A DNA stretch of 33,065 nt. Origin: Gemmatimonadota bacterium. GTDB taxonomy: Bacteria; Gemmatimonadota; Gemmatimonadetes; Longimicrobiales; Gaopeijiaceae. Shown here one piece after another: positions 15,725 to 22,900 of this stretch. The translations under genes were made by a program, and so were the position numbers. Each line of letters begins with the position of its first letter. Within the stretch, counting starts at the first letter, position 1. The notes under the pieces were generated by a model. The model was given only the letters and a program-made list of their open reading frames with translations. It was not told the origin of the DNA and made no database searches. The stretch lies in NCBI GenBank assembly GCA_015664885.1, contig DQPL01000106.1, forward strand, positions 1 through 33,065, given 5' to 3'.

Positions 15725-16765
15725 ATGGTCAACCCCGCTCTCGCGCTCTCCGCCTTCGCGCTCCTGGTCGCATTGCTCGCGGTGGTTTTTTGGCCGCGAC
15801 GGGGCGTGTACGCGCGATTCGCGCGCTTGGCGCTGCTGACCGAACGGGTCCGCCTAGAGGACGCGATCAAGCACGTGTACACCTGGGAGCAGGCCGGTCG
15901 GATCGCCACGCTCGAGAGCCTGGCCGGTCGTCTCGAGATCTCGCGCGTGAAGGCTGCTATGCTGCTGCAGCGACTCACTGAGCTGGGTCTGGTCCACACC
16001 GGTGACGAAGGGCCCTCGCTCTCCGAGGACGGGCGCGACACCGCGTTGCGGCTCGTGCGTACGCACCGACTTTGGGAGCGATACCTGGCAGACCGAACCG
16101 GCGTCCCGGCGACCGAGTGGCATGATGAGGCCGAGCGTGTAGAGCACCGCCTGTCCGAGGAGCAAGCCGAGGCACTCTCGGCCCGGCTCGGACACCCGCG
16201 CTGGGACCCGCACGGTGACCCGATTCCCACTCCGAGCGGTCACGTGCCGGAGGTGGAGCAGTTGAGTCTCGCGGGCGTGCTCGCCGGTCGTACGGTCGAA
16301 ATCGTACACCTCGAGGATGAGCCGCGAGAGATCTTCGACGCGTTGCTCACCCAGGGTCTGCACCTCGGTGGGCGGCTCGAAGTCTTGGCGCGGGACAACC
16401 AACGCGTGCGCGTCGTCAGCGGGGGCCGTGAATCGTCCGTCGATCTCGTAGACGCCCGCAACGTAACTGTACGCGTACTCGCCGAGGGCGAGAGAGTGCA
16501 AGGTCCGTCAGAGACGCTGGCCGACCTGGCGCCGGGCGAAGTCGGGCGCGTACTCGACCTCTCCCCGGCGTGCCGCGGCCCGCAGCGTCGGCGCCTGCTC
16601 GACCTCGGGGTCGTCAAGGGGACGGAGATCACCGCGGAGATGGTGAGCGCTGCGGGCGATCCGGTTGCCTACCTCATTCGCGGTGCGCTCATCGCGCTAC
16701 GGCGTGGCCAGGCCGAGTGGGTTCTGGTGGAGCGTGTCAAGACCCAGGTGGAGGTCACTACCTGA
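15725..16765 (+). CDS. Membrane-anchored DtxR-type metalloregulator fused to two FeoA-like domains
   Basis: A 346-residue multi-domain protein. Residues 5-23 form a transmembrane helix (ALALSAFALLVALLAVVFW), so the protein is likely tethered to the inner membrane. Residues about 44-100 are a DtxR winged helix (LAGRLEISRVKAAMLLQRLTELGLV). Residues 105-168 are the DtxR dimerisation and metal-binding region, with His/Glu ligands in RTHRLWERYL and HDEAERVEHRLS and the family motif DPHGDPIP. Two SH3-like FeoA domains follow, at about 178-255 and 262-337; the second has LLDLGVVKGTEI and GDPVAYLIRGALIALRRGQA, typical of FeoA. The start is ATG at 15725; the open frame upstream covers the iron boxes. 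Its stop overlaps the feoB ATG (TGATG). Confidence 0.85.
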   Translation: MVNPALALSAFALLVALLAVVFWPRRGVYARFARLALLTERVRLEDAIKHVYTWEQAGRIATLESLAGRLEISRVKAAMLLQRLTELGLVHTGDEGPSLSEDGRDTALRLVRTHRLWERYLADRTGVPATEWHDEAERVEHRLSEEQAEALSARLGHPRWDPHGDPIPTPSGHVPEVEQLSLAGVLAGRTVEIVHLEDEPREIFDALLTQGLHLGGRLEVLARDNQRVRVVSGGRESSVDLVDARNVTVRVLAEGERVQGPSETLADLAPGEVGRVLDLSPACRGPQRRRLLDLGVVKGTEITAEMVSAAGDPVAYLIRGALIALRRGQAEWVLVERVKTQVEVTT

Positions 16766-18987
16766 TGCCCACATTGTCCGCGAGCCCGTGTGGGTCCTGC
16801 GCCCAGCATCGTACGCAAAGCCTGGTTAAGCTCGGGCTTAGCCCGGGCAAGTGGGACTACTTGGTCGCGCTCGCCGGCAACCCGAATGTGGGTAAGAGCA
16901 CGGTCTTTAATGCGCTCACGGGGCTCCGCCAGCACACCGGGAATTGGCCGGGCAAAACGGTGGTGCGCGCGGAAGGCGCGTTCGAGCACGAGGGGAAACG
17001 CGTAAAGGTTGTCGACCTTCCTGGCACTTATTCGCTCCAGGCGGGCAGCGCCGACGAGGAAGTGGCTCGGGACTTCGTGCTGTTCGGCCGGCCGGATGTC
17101 ACGATCGTGGTCGTGGACGCCACGCGCCTCGAGCGCAACCTCAACCTGGTGCTCCAGATCCGGGAGATCACTGACCGGGTTGTGGTCTTCTTGAATCTCA
17201 TCGACGAGGCCCGCAGACACGGCATCGCGATCGACGCCAAGAAGCTCGAGAAGGAGCTGGGCGTGCCGGTGGTGCAGGGCATAGCGCGCGAGAGCGTCGG
17301 TATGGACGAACTGCTCGATGCCGTTCACGCGGTCGCGACCGGTGTTCATTCCGGGCAACAGATCCGCATCGCGCGCCACGCGCCGCGCGTCGAGCAGGCG
17401 ATCACCGGTCTGGTGCCCGTGATCGAGGACGTATTCCCGCAGGTCCCGAATCCGCGCTGGGTCGCTCTACGGCTGCTCAACGCCGACGAGGCCGTGCAGG
17501 AGGCAGTGCGCACGGGAGAGCTGGGTCAACTCTCGCGGGACGACACGGGCGACCTGGTCGAGCTGGCGCCGGAATGGGGCCGCGAGCAGGTGCTCGACGC
17601 GGCCATGCGCCTGCGTTGGGACCTGCCGTCCGACTTCCACGACGTGGTCACGCAGCGAGCCTATGAGGCTGCGGAGGAAGTGGCGGCTCGCGTTCAGATG
17701 GGCGGCCTCAAGAAGGCGGGGTTCGCGTTCGATCGAAAGCTGGACTCGTGGCTCACGAGTAGAATCTTCGGTTTCCCGCTCATGCTGTTGATTCTGGCCC
17801 TCGTGTTCTGGATCACGATCGAGGGGGCGAACGTGCCGTCGTCCATGTTGGCCACGCTGCTGGTGGAGAACGGCCGGCCGTTGCTGCACGAGCTCGCATC
17901 AGCGGTGTCGATGCCATGGTGGCTCGACGGGTTCTTGATCGACGGAGTGTATCTCGCTACGGCGTGGGTGATTGCCGTGATGCTGCCGCCCATGGCCATC
18001 TTCTTCCCGCTGTTCACGCTGCTGGAGGACTTCGGCTACTTGCCGCGGGTGGCTTTCAACCTGGACTCGATGTTCCAGAAGGCCGGCGCACATGGCAAGC
18101 AGGCGCTGACGATGTGCATGGGCTTCGGGTGCAACGCCGCCGGTGTCGTGGCTACGCGCGTCATCGACTCCCCGCGCGAGCGACTCATCGCGATCATCAC
18201 CAACAACTTCTCGCTCTGTAACGGGCGCTGGCCGACGCAGATTCTCATTGCGACGATCTTCATCGGAGCGCTCGCGCCCTCACAGCTCGGTGGCTTGGTG
18301 AGCGCGGCTGCCGTGGTGGGCATCGCGTTGCTCGGCATCGTGATGATGTTCTTCTCTTCGTGGATTCTCTCCCGAACGGTGCTGCGTGGAGAGGCGACGA
18401 GCTTCAGCCTGGAACTGCCGCCGTACCGCCCCCCGCGTGTCCTACAGACACTCTACACGTCGGTCATCGACCGGACCCTGATCGTGCTCTGGCGCGCCGT
18501 GATCTTCGCGATCCCGGCGGGTGCCGTCATCTGGCTGATATCGAACATCTCGGTCGGTGGGCTGACCCTCGCGCACCACTCGGTTGCGTGGCTGGACCCG
18601 CTCGGCCTTCTGCTAGGCATGAATGGTGTGATCCTGCTCGCTTACGTCGTGGCGATCCCGGCGAACGAGATCGTCATCCCCACCATCCTGATGCTGACCG
18701 TTCTCACGGGCGCCGGGGCCGGAGGTGAAGGGGCTGGCGTGATGTTCGAGTTCGGCAGCGTGGGTGTGACCGGGGACCTGCTGCGCGACGGAGGTTGGAC
18801 GCTGCTCACTGCGGTGTGCCTCATGCTTTTCAGCCTACTGCACAACCCGTGCTCCACGACGATCTACACGATCTACAAGGAGACACGCAGCGCGAAGTGG
18901 ACGACGGTCGCGACGCTCATGCCTGTCGTGATGGGCGTCACGGTCTGCTTTCTGGTGACCCAGGTCTGGAGACTGATCGCGGCGTAG
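16765..18987 (+). CDS. feoB: Ferrous iron transporter FeoB (first copy)
   Basis: A 740-residue inner-membrane Fe(II) transporter of normal family length. An N-terminal CGSC (residues 9-12) precedes the G domain: G1 GNPNVGKST at 38-46, G3 DLPGTYS from residue 84, and a G4 motif that reads NLID, not the common NMxD. The membrane part contains GFGCNAAGVVATRVID and RERLIAIITNNFSLCNGRWP, the conserved Gate regions, and ends with a helix after NPCSTTIYTIYKETRS. The start is the ATG overlapping the regulator gene by one base; the frame is open upstream inside that gene, without homology. Coupling to a DtxR-FeoA fusion suggests that FeoA function is provided by the regulator protein. Confidence 0.95.
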   Translation: MPTLSASPCGSCAQHRTQSLVKLGLSPGKWDYLVALAGNPNVGKSTVFNALTGLRQHTGNWPGKTVVRAEGAFEHEGKRVKVVDLPGTYSLQAGSADEEVARDFVLFGRPDVTIVVVDATRLERNLNLVLQIREITDRVVVFLNLIDEARRHGIAIDAKKLEKELGVPVVQGIARESVGMDELLDAVHAVATGVHSGQQIRIARHAPRVEQAITGLVPVIEDVFPQVPNPRWVALRLLNADEAVQEAVRTGELGQLSRDDTGDLVELAPEWGREQVLDAAMRLRWDLPSDFHDVVTQRAYEAAEEVAARVQMGGLKKAGFAFDRKLDSWLTSRIFGFPLMLLILALVFWITIEGANVPSSMLATLLVENGRPLLHELASAVSMPWWLDGFLIDGVYLATAWVIAVMLPPMAIFFPLFTLLEDFGYLPRVAFNLDSMFQKAGAHGKQALTMCMGFGCNAAGVVATRVIDSPRERLIAIITNNFSLCNGRWPTQILIATIFIGALAPSQLGGLVSAAAVVGIALLGIVMMFFSSWILSRTVLRGEATSFSLELPPYRPPRVLQTLYTSVIDRTLIVLWRAVIFAIPAGAVIWLISNISVGGLTLAHHSVAWLDPLGLLLGMNGVILLAYVVAIPANEIVIPTILMLTVLTGAGAGGEGAGVMFEFGSVGVTGDLLRDGGWTLLTAVCLMLFSLLHNPCSTTIYTIYKETRSAKWTTVATLMPVVMGVTVCFLVTQVWRLIAA

Positions 18988-19068: not shown

Positions 19069-19887
19069 ATGCCCGATTTCAACGACATCGTCGACATCGT
19101 TTCCGGTGTCATCGCCCAATGGACTCCAAGAGTCCTGGGTTCGCTTGCCCTCCTGATCTCCGGATGGATGATCGCTGGCCACATGAAGCGGCTGGCCAGA
19201 GAGGCCCTCTCCGCTTCCGCGATCGACGACATCCTGGTCCCGTTCCTGGCCGGCATGATCCATGTCACGATCATCGTGCTCGTGGCCATCGCAGCCGTGG
19301 GCGTACTGGGCGTGAACACCGCGTCGTTCGTCGCCGTGTTGGGTGCGGCCGGCCTCGCGGTCGCGTTGGCGTTCCAGGACACCTTCTCGAACTTCGCCGC
19401 CGGTGTGATGCTGCTCACATTCCGTCCGTTCGACGTCGGCAATTACGTAGATGTGGGCGGAACCGCGGGCACCGTGCAAGAGGTCGGCATTTTCACGTGT
19501 CTGCTGACGACGAGTGACAACATCCAGATCCGAGTCCCCAACTCGAAGATCTTCGGTCAGACGATCGTCAACTATTCCGTCAGCGACACGCGGCGCATCG
19601 ATCTGTCGATCGGTGTGGGATACGATGATGATCTGGGCACCGCGATTCGCACGTGTCTGGACGTGCTCGCCGCTGACCCTCGCGTGCTCGAGGACCCGGA
19701 GGCGATCGTAGCGGTCAACGAACTCGGGGACTCTGCTGTGCAGCTCGTGGTTCGACCCTGGGTCAAGCGGACGGACTACGGGTCGACCCGTTGGGACCTG
19801 ATCCGCGCACTCAAGGAGAACCTCGAGGCCGCCGGCTGCACGCTGCCCTACCCGCAGAGGGACGTGCATCTGCACCAGGTGAGCTAG
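19069..19887 (+). CDS. Small-conductance mechanosensitive channel, MscS family
   Basis: A 272-residue MscS-type channel, about the size of E. coli MscS. It has three helices (about 14-35, 60-85 and 88-115), of which the third is the pore helix FVAVLGAAGLAVALAFQDTFSNFAAG. The beta domain follows with RPFDVGNYVDVGGTAGTVQEV and RVPNSKIFGQTIVNYS. These channels open on hypo-osmotic stress. The start is ATG at 19069 with an AGGTG site; a GTG at 19060 is the alternative. The stop codon TAG lies inside the left arm of the repeat element that begins at 19884, so the last codons abut an insertion. Confidence 0.92.
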   Translation: MPDFNDIVDIVSGVIAQWTPRVLGSLALLISGWMIAGHMKRLAREALSASAIDDILVPFLAGMIHVTIIVLVAIAAVGVLGVNTASFVAVLGAAGLAVALAFQDTFSNFAAGVMLLTFRPFDVGNYVDVGGTAGTVQEVGIFTCLLTTSDNIQIRVPNSKIFGQTIVNYSVSDTRRIDLSIGVGYDDDLGTAIRTCLDVLAADPRVLEDPEAIVAVNELGDSAVQLVVRPWVKRTDYGSTRWDLIRALKENLEAAGCTLPYPQRDVHLHQVS

Positions 19888-20048
19888 TGTCCTGTCCCAG
19901 AAGTTCGCCGGCATTCGGGCACCGATACACCCACCCTGGCTGCGTCGCTCCTCCTCAAAATAGCCCTGCTATTCCTCGTCGTCGCGCCTTGTCAGGGAGG
20001 CGCCTCGTCACCCTCGGTGCTCGCCGAACTTCTGGGACGGGACACTAG
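19884..20048. mobile_element. MITE-like palindromic element, 165 bp
   Basis: The ends are 24-base inverted repeats with one mismatch: the left reads CTAGTGTCCTGTCCCAGAAG then TTCG, and the right is its complement ending GGGACACTAG. The centre (19959-19973) is a smaller perfect palindrome, AATAGC-CCT-GCTATT, and its midpoint (19966) is exactly the midpoint of the whole element. The transcript could therefore fold into one long imperfect hairpin. It has no coding capacity. Layout and size fit a non-autonomous MITE or REPIN-type repeat. The insertion supplies or overlaps the stop codon of the MscS gene and borders a gene remnant on its right side. Confidence 0.75.
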
Positions 20049-20084: not shown

Positions 20085-20537
20085 GGGCTTGACGCGCAGT
20101 TTACGACTGGCCCATGGCTGTTCAAGGCCGAAGGCATTATCCGAGACGGCCGTGAGGCGGAGCGATACAGCGCACTCACGCTCGGGTTCGAGCGCACGAC
20201 CTACCAGATTTTCGGGACGAGCGCCGACCTCGGTTTGGTCGCGGAGTATCTCTACGACGATCGCGGTGTCCAGGCGCTCACGCCGTTCCAGGACGACGTC
20301 TTCTTGGGCGTGCGAGTGGCGCTCAACGATGTGAAGGGCTCGGACGTTCTAGCCGGACTCATCCTCGACCTAAACGACGGATCGGGTGTTTACAAGGTCG
20401 AATCGAGCCGCCGAGTAGGGAATTCCTGGACTTTGGCGCTGGAGGCGCGTGGTTTCTGGGGGACCGAGAAAGGTCACTTCCTGCACGATTTTCGGCGGGA
20501 CGACTACGTTTCCCTTGGTGTGACCCGGTGGTTTTAG
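20085..20537 (+). pseudogene. Outer-membrane beta-barrel protein, C-terminal remnant
   Basis: An open frame of about 150 codons begins after a TGA at 20082-20084 and has no start codon in its first part; the first possible start (GTG at 20235) lies well inside the conserved region. It reads WLFKAEGIIRDG, YSALTLGFERTTYQIF, ADLGLVAEYLYDDRG, ALTPFQDDVFLGVRVALND, and ends in LGVTRWF with a terminal Phe, as outer-membrane barrels do. This is the C-terminal part of a conserved hypothetical outer-membrane protein family. The 5' half is missing, and the MITE-like element lies just 36 bases upstream of this frame, suggesting that deletion and insertion events are linked. Confidence 0.65.
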
Positions 20538-20632: not shown

Positions 20633-20938
20633 GTGGATACACCCGTGCAGCTTCCGACAGCCTCGACAAACGCCTCCGAGCAGGAGTTTGTGGAGTTGCG
20701 TCTCGCCCAGGTACCGCTGCGGCAGACCGTGGAGCTCGTCCGCATCGATCTGCCTCCGGAGCAGGCCGAGCCACTGCTAGAGCGCGGGGTCCTTCCCGGA
20801 TGTCGCATCTGCCCCGTGCGCTCGTCCCCCTCCGGAGACCCAATCATCTCCATCGACGGCTCGCTGCTGGCGTTTCGTAAGGAGACCGCAGCGTGTTTGT
20901 GTGTGCGCCTCATCACTCAGTTCCGGGACGCGGGCTGA
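20633..20938 (+). CDS. feoA: FeoA-domain protein
   Basis: A 101-residue protein. Residues 24-98 have the FeoA pattern: VELVRIDLPPEQAEPLLERGVLPG-like sequence, then GDPIISIDGSLLAFRKETAACLCV. FeoA is a small cytoplasmic SH3-like protein that assists FeoB. The proposed start is GTG at 20633; an AGGT site lies 12 bases before it, so the start is moderately supported, and an N-terminal extension of about 20 residues precedes the domain. The gene is 30 bases upstream of a second feoB. Confidence 0.8.
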   Translation: MDTPVQLPTASTNASEQEFVELRLAQVPLRQTVELVRIDLPPEQAEPLLERGVLPGCRICPVRSSPSGDPIISIDGSLLAFRKETAACLCVRLITQFRDAG

Positions 20939-20968
20939 GGCCTGCGGCCCTCGGGCTGCTACCCTCCA

Positions 20969-22900
20969 TTGGCTGAGCAGCGCGCTGTCCTGGTAGGCGC
21001 ACGCGTCGCCTCTGGCGCTGCCCTCCAGGAAGCCCCCTCACCGCTCGTCGCGCTGATTGGGCCGCCCAACTCGGGCAAGACCACGCTCTTCAATCAGCTG
21101 ACCGGCCTTCGGCAAAAGGTCGCCAACTATCCTGGCGTTACCGTCGAGAAGAAGGTGGGCACGGTCGCGTTGCCGGATGGTGGAGAACTCGACCTCGTCG
21201 ACCTACCCGGTGTCCACGGATTTTCAGCACGCACGCTCGACGAGAGGGTCACACGCGACGTACTGGAAGGACGGGTCGAGGGCATCCGCGCCCCCGATGC
21301 GCTCGTGCTCATCGTCGATTCTACGCGCCTCGAGAGCCAACTCATGCTGGTCGAACCCGTGCTCGAGCTCGACTTGCCGACGCTGCTGGTGCTCAACATG
21401 TGCGACGAGTTGGAGCAGCGCGGCGGGCGGGTGGACGACAGCCATCTGGCGGAGCGCCTGGGCGTGAAGGTCGCGCGCACCAGCGCCCGCTCCGGAGCGG
21501 GCGTGGATTTGGTGAGGGAGTTCCTAGCGACGGAGGTGGCCGTCGCCGAGCCCCCAGGCCCGGTACAGCCGCGGACCCTGAGCAACATTCCCCGCGGTGT
21601 CGCGCTTCCGATGGTGGACGCGTTCAAGCAGCGCCGAGCGAGAGTAAGCGAAGTCGTCGCGGGTGCGGGCTTCAGATCACCTGACCCCTCGGGATTCAGC
21701 GAACGCCTCGACCACGTCTTTTTGCACCGGATCTGGGGCCCGCTCGTCTTCCTCGCGGTGGTGGTACTCGTCTTCGAGTCGATCTTTACGTGGGCGGTGC
21801 CGATCATGGATGGCGTCGAGCTCGTCGTCGGCGCGTCGGGCAACTGGCTGACCGCGACTCTGCCCGACACATGGTTCCGATCTCTGCTCGTCGACGGCGT
21901 GTGGGCCGGCGTCGGGTCCGTGGTGATCTTCTTGCCGCAGATCCTGGTGCTCTTCCTCTTCCTGGGCGTGTTGGAGGACTCCGGCTATATGGCCCGCGCG
22001 GCGGTCATCGCGGACCGCATGATGTACCGGGTCGGGCTGCAAGGCAGGGCATTTCTGCCGCTGCTGTCGGGGTACGCCTGCGCGGTGCCGGCGATCCTCG
22101 CCGCGCGCACGGTCGAGGACGAGCGGGACCGCCTCGCGACCATCTTCGTGACGCCCTTCATGACGTGCTCGGCGCGCTTGCCAGTGTACGCGTTGCTGAT
22201 CGCAGCTTTCATCCCAGATGAGCCGCTGCTCGGTCCGATCCTGGGAAAACGGGCCGCGATGCTACTGGGCTTGTACGGGCTCGGGATCGTGGCGGCGATT
22301 GGGACCGCATTCCTTCTCAAGCGCACGCTGCTCAAGGCCGAGCCGACGGCGTTCTTGATGGAACTACCGCCCTACCGCGTGCCCACGCTGCGCTCGTTGG
22401 GCCTTCGGCTGGTGGACCGCAGCGGGGTCTTCTTGAAGCGCGTCGGCAAAGTCATCTTCACCGTCTCGATCGTGCTTTGGACACTGACCCAGTTCCCGCG
22501 AACCGAGCTCGGTCCTCCGCCGATCGATGACAGCGCGCTGGCGAGCATCGGCCACCTCATCGAGCCAGTGATCGCCCCACTCGGCTTCGACTGGAAGATT
22601 GGCGTTGGTCTGGTGACATCGCTGGCTGCCCGCGAGGTGATCGTGGGTACGCTCGGAACGATTTATGGTGTGGAAGCGGCGGGCGACGAGTCGTTCGAGC
22701 TGCAGGATGCGCTTACCGATGCCCTAACACCGGCGTCGGCGATCGGACTTCTGATCTTCTTCGCTTTCGCGCTTCAGTGCATGTCGACGGTCGCGGTCAT
22801 GCGCCGGGAGACAGCCGGGTGGAAATGGCCAGCGCTTCAGTTTATGTACATGCTTTTGCTCGCGTACGCGGGCGCATTCATCGCCGTGCGCGTCTTCTAG
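20969..22900 (+). CDS. feoB: Ferrous iron transporter FeoB (second copy)
   Basis: A 643-residue FeoB, about 100 residues shorter than the first copy and lacking its CGSC-containing N-terminus. The G domain has G1 GPPNSGKTT at about 31-39, G3 DLPGVHG and a canonical G4 NMCDE. The membrane domain includes SGYACAVPAILAARTVEDERD and TPFMTCSARLPVYALLIAAF, the conserved Gate motifs, and ends without a long cytoplasmic tail. The proposed start is TTG at 20969; no ATG or GTG with a clear ribosome-binding site lies nearby. The two FeoBs are diverged paralogues rather than a recent duplication. The stop overlaps the end of the convergent MATE remnant. Confidence 0.93.
   Translation: MAEQRAVLVGARVASGAALQEAPSPLVALIGPPNSGKTTLFNQLTGLRQKVANYPGVTVEKKVGTVALPDGGELDLVDLPGVHGFSARTLDERVTRDVLEGRVEGIRAPDALVLIVDSTRLESQLMLVEPVLELDLPTLLVLNMCDELEQRGGRVDDSHLAERLGVKVARTSARSGAGVDLVREFLATEVAVAEPPGPVQPRTLSNIPRGVALPMVDAFKQRRARVSEVVAGAGFRSPDPSGFSERLDHVFLHRIWGPLVFLAVVVLVFESIFTWAVPIMDGVELVVGASGNWLTATLPDTWFRSLLVDGVWAGVGSVVIFLPQILVLFLFLGVLEDSGYMARAAVIADRMMYRVGLQGRAFLPLLSGYACAVPAILAARTVEDERDRLATIFVTPFMTCSARLPVYALLIAAFIPDEPLLGPILGKRAAMLLGLYGLGIVAAIGTAFLLKRTLLKAEPTAFLMELPPYRVPTLRSLGLRLVDRSGVFLKRVGKVIFTVSIVLWTLTQFPRTELGPPPIDDSALASIGHLIEPVIAPLGFDWKIGVGLVTSLAAREVIVGTLGTIYGVEAAGDESFELQDALTDALTPASAIGLLIFFAFALQCMSTVAVMRRETAGWKWPALQFMYMLLLAYAGAFIAVRVF

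Follow-up and report, generated by a model that had tools for sequence, protein, structure and literature searches.

How does a near-perfect hairpin come to settle at the very end of an intact gene for an MscS-type mechanosensitive channel, and what might such a structure be for? The question is raised by positions 19884-20048 of a stretch of 33,065 bp from a Gemmatimonadota bacterium (the window, by which we mean the whole stretch of DNA analysed), where CTAG-flanked inverted repeats enclose a central palindrome located at their midpoint (Table 1). This element is very probably a non-autonomous MITE that an IS630-family transposase moved in trans into the TAG stop of mscS, and that carries a conserved hairpin core. 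As a MITE it belongs to a kind already known; the new part is the core, which recurs across phyla. Insertion into a stop codon at CTAG, with duplication of TA, leaves the encoded protein unchanged, suggesting a testable answer to how palindromes settle harmlessly in dense genomes.

Table 1. Features of the element and of the gene that it adjoins, in window coordinates
Feature	Position	Strand	Basis or remark
Intact gene for an MscS-type mechanosensitive channel of 275 aa	19060..19887	+	Pfam and NCBIfam matches; insertion lies in its stop codon
CTAG insertion target, left copy	19884..19887	+	TAG at 19885-19887 is the MscS gene stop codon
Left terminal inverted repeat TAGTGTCCTGTCCCAGAAGTTCGCCG, IS630-type end	19885..19910	+	Arm alignment, end comparison
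Mobile unit, 159 bp, GTGTCC...GGACAC	19887..20045	.	Copies; sister-copy empty sites, from which TA duplication is inferred
Conserved structured core, purine-rich strand, apparent tandem G.A pairs	19933..20001	-	Match to model R1, 69.4 bits, E 2.9e-19 in that search
Central palindrome AATAGC-CCT-GCTATT	19959..19973	.	Sequence, copy alignment
Right terminal inverted repeat	20022..20047	-	Arm alignment, end comparison
CTAG target, right copy	20045..20048	+	Sequence, joined flanks

The hairpin and the mscS stop codon

The two arms (19884-19907 and 20025-20048) pair along 24 bp with a single mismatch, and along 27 bp with two. Between them, the central stem AATAGC/GCTATT (19959-19964/19968-19973) and the element as a whole share one midpoint, 19966. 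An earlier sequence-only reading had described exactly these coordinates, arms and shared midpoint, and had found the element to be without coding capacity; we agree, as the plus-strand open reading frames listed across it (85 and 105 aa) are mechanical and begin in or extend into the flanks. The folding energy lies far below that of dinucleotide shuffles (z of -6.8 as RNA and -6.1 as DNA), none of 200 shuffles being equally stable. The outermost C and G of the hairpin are part of the CTAG target, not of the mobile unit, and the inserted length is 161 bp, consisting of the mobile unit and one duplicated TA. Short, free of a transposase gene and bounded by terminal inverted repeats, the element has the make-up of a MITE.

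The TAG stop of mscS had likewise been recognised within the left arm, with the suggestion that the element might supply it. When the flanks are joined at TA they read GTG AGC TAG, and the stop therefore predates the insertion; the joined empty site rules out a stop codon supplied by the element, which only preserves it. Because the TA is duplicated and the element begins with G, the last codon and the stop are unchanged, and the insertion was therefore tolerated. The stops of the 29 mscS orthologues compared lie near the same codon, 0-63 nt beyond the point where the match ends, and no such element is present in the ~110 bp after them. The region 3' of the element is not conserved at this locus; for this reason, and because the sister species has no close mscS orthologue, no clean empty site was found for the window copy itself.

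The MscS gene is flanked by two FeoB-like ferrous iron transporter genes (16570-18987 and 20633-22900), and a FeoA-like ORF (20633-20938) precedes the second, all of them named from translations only. Downstream of the element, an open frame at 20100-20537 that has no obvious start near its left end and no Pfam match is possibly a gene remnant.

Copies, target sites and the IS630 connection

The host genome contains a second complete copy on contig C99 (94%) and two cores within about 0.5 kb on contig C131 (L003, about 1494-2056). Contigs C114, C56 and C42 carry copies that are partial or diverged, or single ends. Matches to the element occur in 65 of 121 genomes and 24 of 40 genera of the host's bacterial family (Longimicrobiales, Gemmatimonadota), and the end pattern is present in 18 of 394 genomes of the class, with no matches in the reversed control. 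Copies are thus multiple and dispersed, both in the genome and in its relatives. A sequence unique in the genome and conserved at this site in all relatives would have spoken against a mobile element; we looked for this and did not find it.

One of the cores on C131 is framed by a different terminal repeat, TAGTGTACCTGAACACAAGTACG. Some copies (L051, L059, L061 and L065 of genome G088, and L006 on C56 of the host genome) have small extra hairpins, GACCCACGCC...GGCGYGGGT and GACCACTCGCC...GGCGAGYGGT, nested at the core edges, much as would result if a second mobile hairpin had entered the MITE.

Flanks of copies in the sister species were searched in the host genome, which revealed empty sites at atpD/atpC, rpsI and scpB (gene names read from translations). 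At atpD/atpC the empty GGG-CTAG-CTCG corresponds to a filled GGG-TTAG...CTAG-CTCG, and each of the three sites is consistent with insertion at TA and duplication of TA inside a TAG stop. Another sister-species copy, on contig C1, gave no clean empty site, as the empty locus has unrelated extra bases. For the window copy, TA/CTAG is seen at both ends, and its TA duplication is taken from the sister copies; its own transposition would have followed the same course. Together with the dispersed copies and the matching IS630 elements described below, the empty sites support the earlier proposal of a mobile, MITE-like hairpin.

Across 56 copies, C precedes the TA in 45 and G follows it in 46. In 30 of them a coding-like frame has its stop at one end or both, versus 4 of 39 background CTAG sites and 25 of 1415 TA sites, and in 27 of 56 the TAG stop of such a frame is also present in the joined empty site; these counts rest on codon signature and joined empty sites, and any spurious open frame in GC-rich DNA ends at the element's TAG. 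At three ends the joined site would give a Tyr codon, and the gene would therefore have been interrupted. The excess at stops is likely due to a preference for CTAG combined with the loss of insertions within genes.

The likely source of the transposase is the IS630 family of insertion sequences (NCBIfam NF033545), which have the same type of terminal repeat and the same CTAG/TA target and, unlike the window element, encode a transposase. IS630-family elements with matching ends are found in relatives (L100 and L102; NF033545 E 6e-81 and 4e-78) and begin with TAGTGT..., as does the window element. An autonomous IS630 element of 1,158 bp from the same class (L358; NF033545 E 6e-86) has the ends TAGTGTCCTGAGTCAGAAGTTCGTT and TAGTGTCCTGAACCAGAAGTTCGTT; its terminal TAs are preceded by C and followed by G. 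Its ends are shared with the MITE family: 21 and 20 of 25 positions are identical to the ends of the window copy, and one end equals that of the sister copy L056 at 25 of 25. L358 was retrieved with a pattern derived from the ends of the window copy, so the match at one end is a result of selection; independent evidence comes from the other end, from the transposase and from the identity to L056. When 110 MITE ends were compared with 22 IS630 ends, the best match averaged 17.1 of 24, whereas other TAGT sites gave 12.9 (sd 0.8). The end variants of MITEs and IS630 elements run in parallel. No IS630 transposase was detected in the host genome (99%-complete), and mobilisation there was accordingly either past or by an element since lost or unassembled. 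The sequence-only reading had envisaged a transposase elsewhere in the genome; an IS630 element with matching ends does exist, in relatives and in the class rather than in the host.

Very probably, then, an IS630-family transposase acting in trans recognises the TAGTGTCCYGTCCCAGAAGTTCG-type ends of the MITE and inserts it at TA, preferably within CTAG, duplicating the TA. The window copy would have entered the TAG stop of mscS in this manner, with the last codon and stop retained; the core hairpin between the ends is maintained in its structure, beyond its sequence.

Other explanations start from the hairpin itself. It is strong, it lies directly at the mscS stop, and many of its copies adjoin gene ends, so that it could have been kept, whatever its origin, as a transcription terminator for mscS, as had been suggested, or as an mRNA-stabilising 3' structure. 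We find this improbable. A scan of the element for intrinsic terminators (a GC-rich hairpin followed by a T-run) found none, and adjoining genes enter either arm about equally (16 versus 14), which leaves the terminator unsupported; furthermore, the mscS orthologues lack the element, and copies also lie between closely spaced genes, such as atpD/atpC, where a terminator would harm. A Rho- or RNase III-type effect may still occur. Compensatory changes that maintain the hairpin (see below) are also what would be expected of a folded-strand substrate, as in a REP/RAYT-type element, whose hairpin is read by a Y1 (HUH) transposase that moves it in single-stranded form. Such mobilisation leaves no target duplication, whereas TA is duplicated at the sister-copy empty sites; this and the IS630-type ends indicate a DDE enzyme that works on duplex ends, and we give the REP/RAYT reading hardly any weight.

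A structured core found across phyla

The core of the IS630-type MITE is ~70 bp long, and on the minus strand its unpaired stretch reads as tandem G.A pairs with C-G pairs between them; Watson-Crick pairs take the place of the outermost G.A module in 6-8 sequences. In an alignment of 37 full-length copies, changes on both sides are seen at 38 of the 48 predicted pairs, and 94.3% of cells are paired. Neither value was reached in any of 500 shuffles, which ignore relatedness, and pairing fell to 33-43% when the partner was slid by 1-3 columns, a control that is partly circular, as this alignment had also yielded the structure. The covariation extends over both terminal arms and the inner helix (columns 49-59/114-124). 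Most likely, the core is a structural module needed for the spread or the tolerance of the element, although its exact role is something that we infer.

The core pattern was found in at least 120 stretches of the genome collection. By record title, the matches listed come from Acidobacteria, Burkholderiales and other Pseudomonadota, Gemmatimonadota, Nitrospirae, Omnitrophota, Elusimicrobia, Myxococcota, Verrucomicrobia, Eisenbacteria, Krumholzibacteria, Binatia and others, that is, a dozen or more phyla, of which some may be wrongly assigned, as the records outside the Betaproteobacteria are mostly MAGs. The core had no matches in viral contigs. Among the matches listed, the position beside the fixed motif is an A in 115 of 115 distinct cores, though the pattern had left it free. 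Watson-Crick pairing is seen at the pair that follows in 88 of 114 cores, versus 40.5 expected; the outer-stem pairs of these cross-phylum cores also covary. Many of these cores lie within terminal inverted repeats, 57 of the 109 listed reaching at least 17 of 20 while no shuffled flank exceeded 15, and the framing repeats differ: TAGTGT..., AGCAGCCCGTGG..., ATCCTAGAAACCGCAGTTGACCGC... and CTAGAGCC.... A core shared across phyla is not described in the open-access literature that we searched, where coverage of one open-licence collection makes for a weak absence.

One core within several different terminal repeats and in many phyla, its covariation within and across phyla, and its invariant A at a position that the search left free (115 of 115 among the matches listed) would also suit a functional RNA or a protein-binding site that uses the MITE ends of several families as vehicles. 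We think such a role for the core less likely than not, though compatible with the arrival of the window copy as an IS630-mobilised MITE. The core shows no strand bias relative to genes, no binding partner is known, and Rfam covariance models gave no match to the element at E up to 1. Moreover, template switching from arm to arm could produce part of the covariation in the absence of selection; it is unlikely to be the sole cause because the internal loop retains its own, non-complementary sequence. We tentatively entertain a broader proposal, in which the core would be an ancient trans-phylum module, captured by MITEs with differing ends (IS630-type and others), its folded form selected for transposition or for binding of a widely conserved host factor, and with the Correia element as a member.

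Related elements

The closest precedent for the mechanism of the IS630-mobilised MITE is RUP of Streptococcus pneumoniae, a 107-bp MITE whose proposed mover is IS630-Spn1 (PMC2229807). Like the window element it is small, palindromic and non-autonomous, with IS630-like ends and a TA target; compared by description, it differs in its host phylum and in having no reported DNA-level functional motif (PMC2229807), whereas the window family has a conserved structured core.

The Correia element (CREE/NEMIS) of Neisseria is about 105-156 bp long, with terminal repeats starting TATAG[CT]G, terminal TA and a conserved core (PMC2649163, PMC2229807). It resembles the window element in size, in the terminal TA and in having such a core, in which the words CAAGGCGACGA and GAGGCAACG are similar to CAAGGCGCGACGA and GAGGAGCAACG of the window element. 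Model R1 weakly matches most CREE copies, which are not independent of one another (E 0.001-0.08; best 19.8-20.3 bits, E 0.001-0.002), a likeness below a firm threshold. The ends of the window element, TAGTGTCCTGTCCC, do not fit the Correia terminal repeats TATAG[CT]GGATTAA... (patterns of PMC2649163), and we do not claim Correia membership for it. A 2009 paper reports the Correia repeat from Neisseria only and its mobilising mechanism as undetermined (PMC2649163). Should many phyla share the core as a single module, families that have been described separately could form one superfamily with a common, assayable function, and such a superfamily, if real, would perhaps include the Correia element.

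In the Burkholderiales, where the core also occurs, the beta-proteobacterial repeat element BRE is a further dispersed repeat, of about 90 bp and able to occur in tandem, which we liken to the window element by description only (PMC3110155). Finally, Correia-element ends were observed on 16 stretches of viral contigs from IMG/VR (L332-L347), which include 106-bp and about 155-bp forms.
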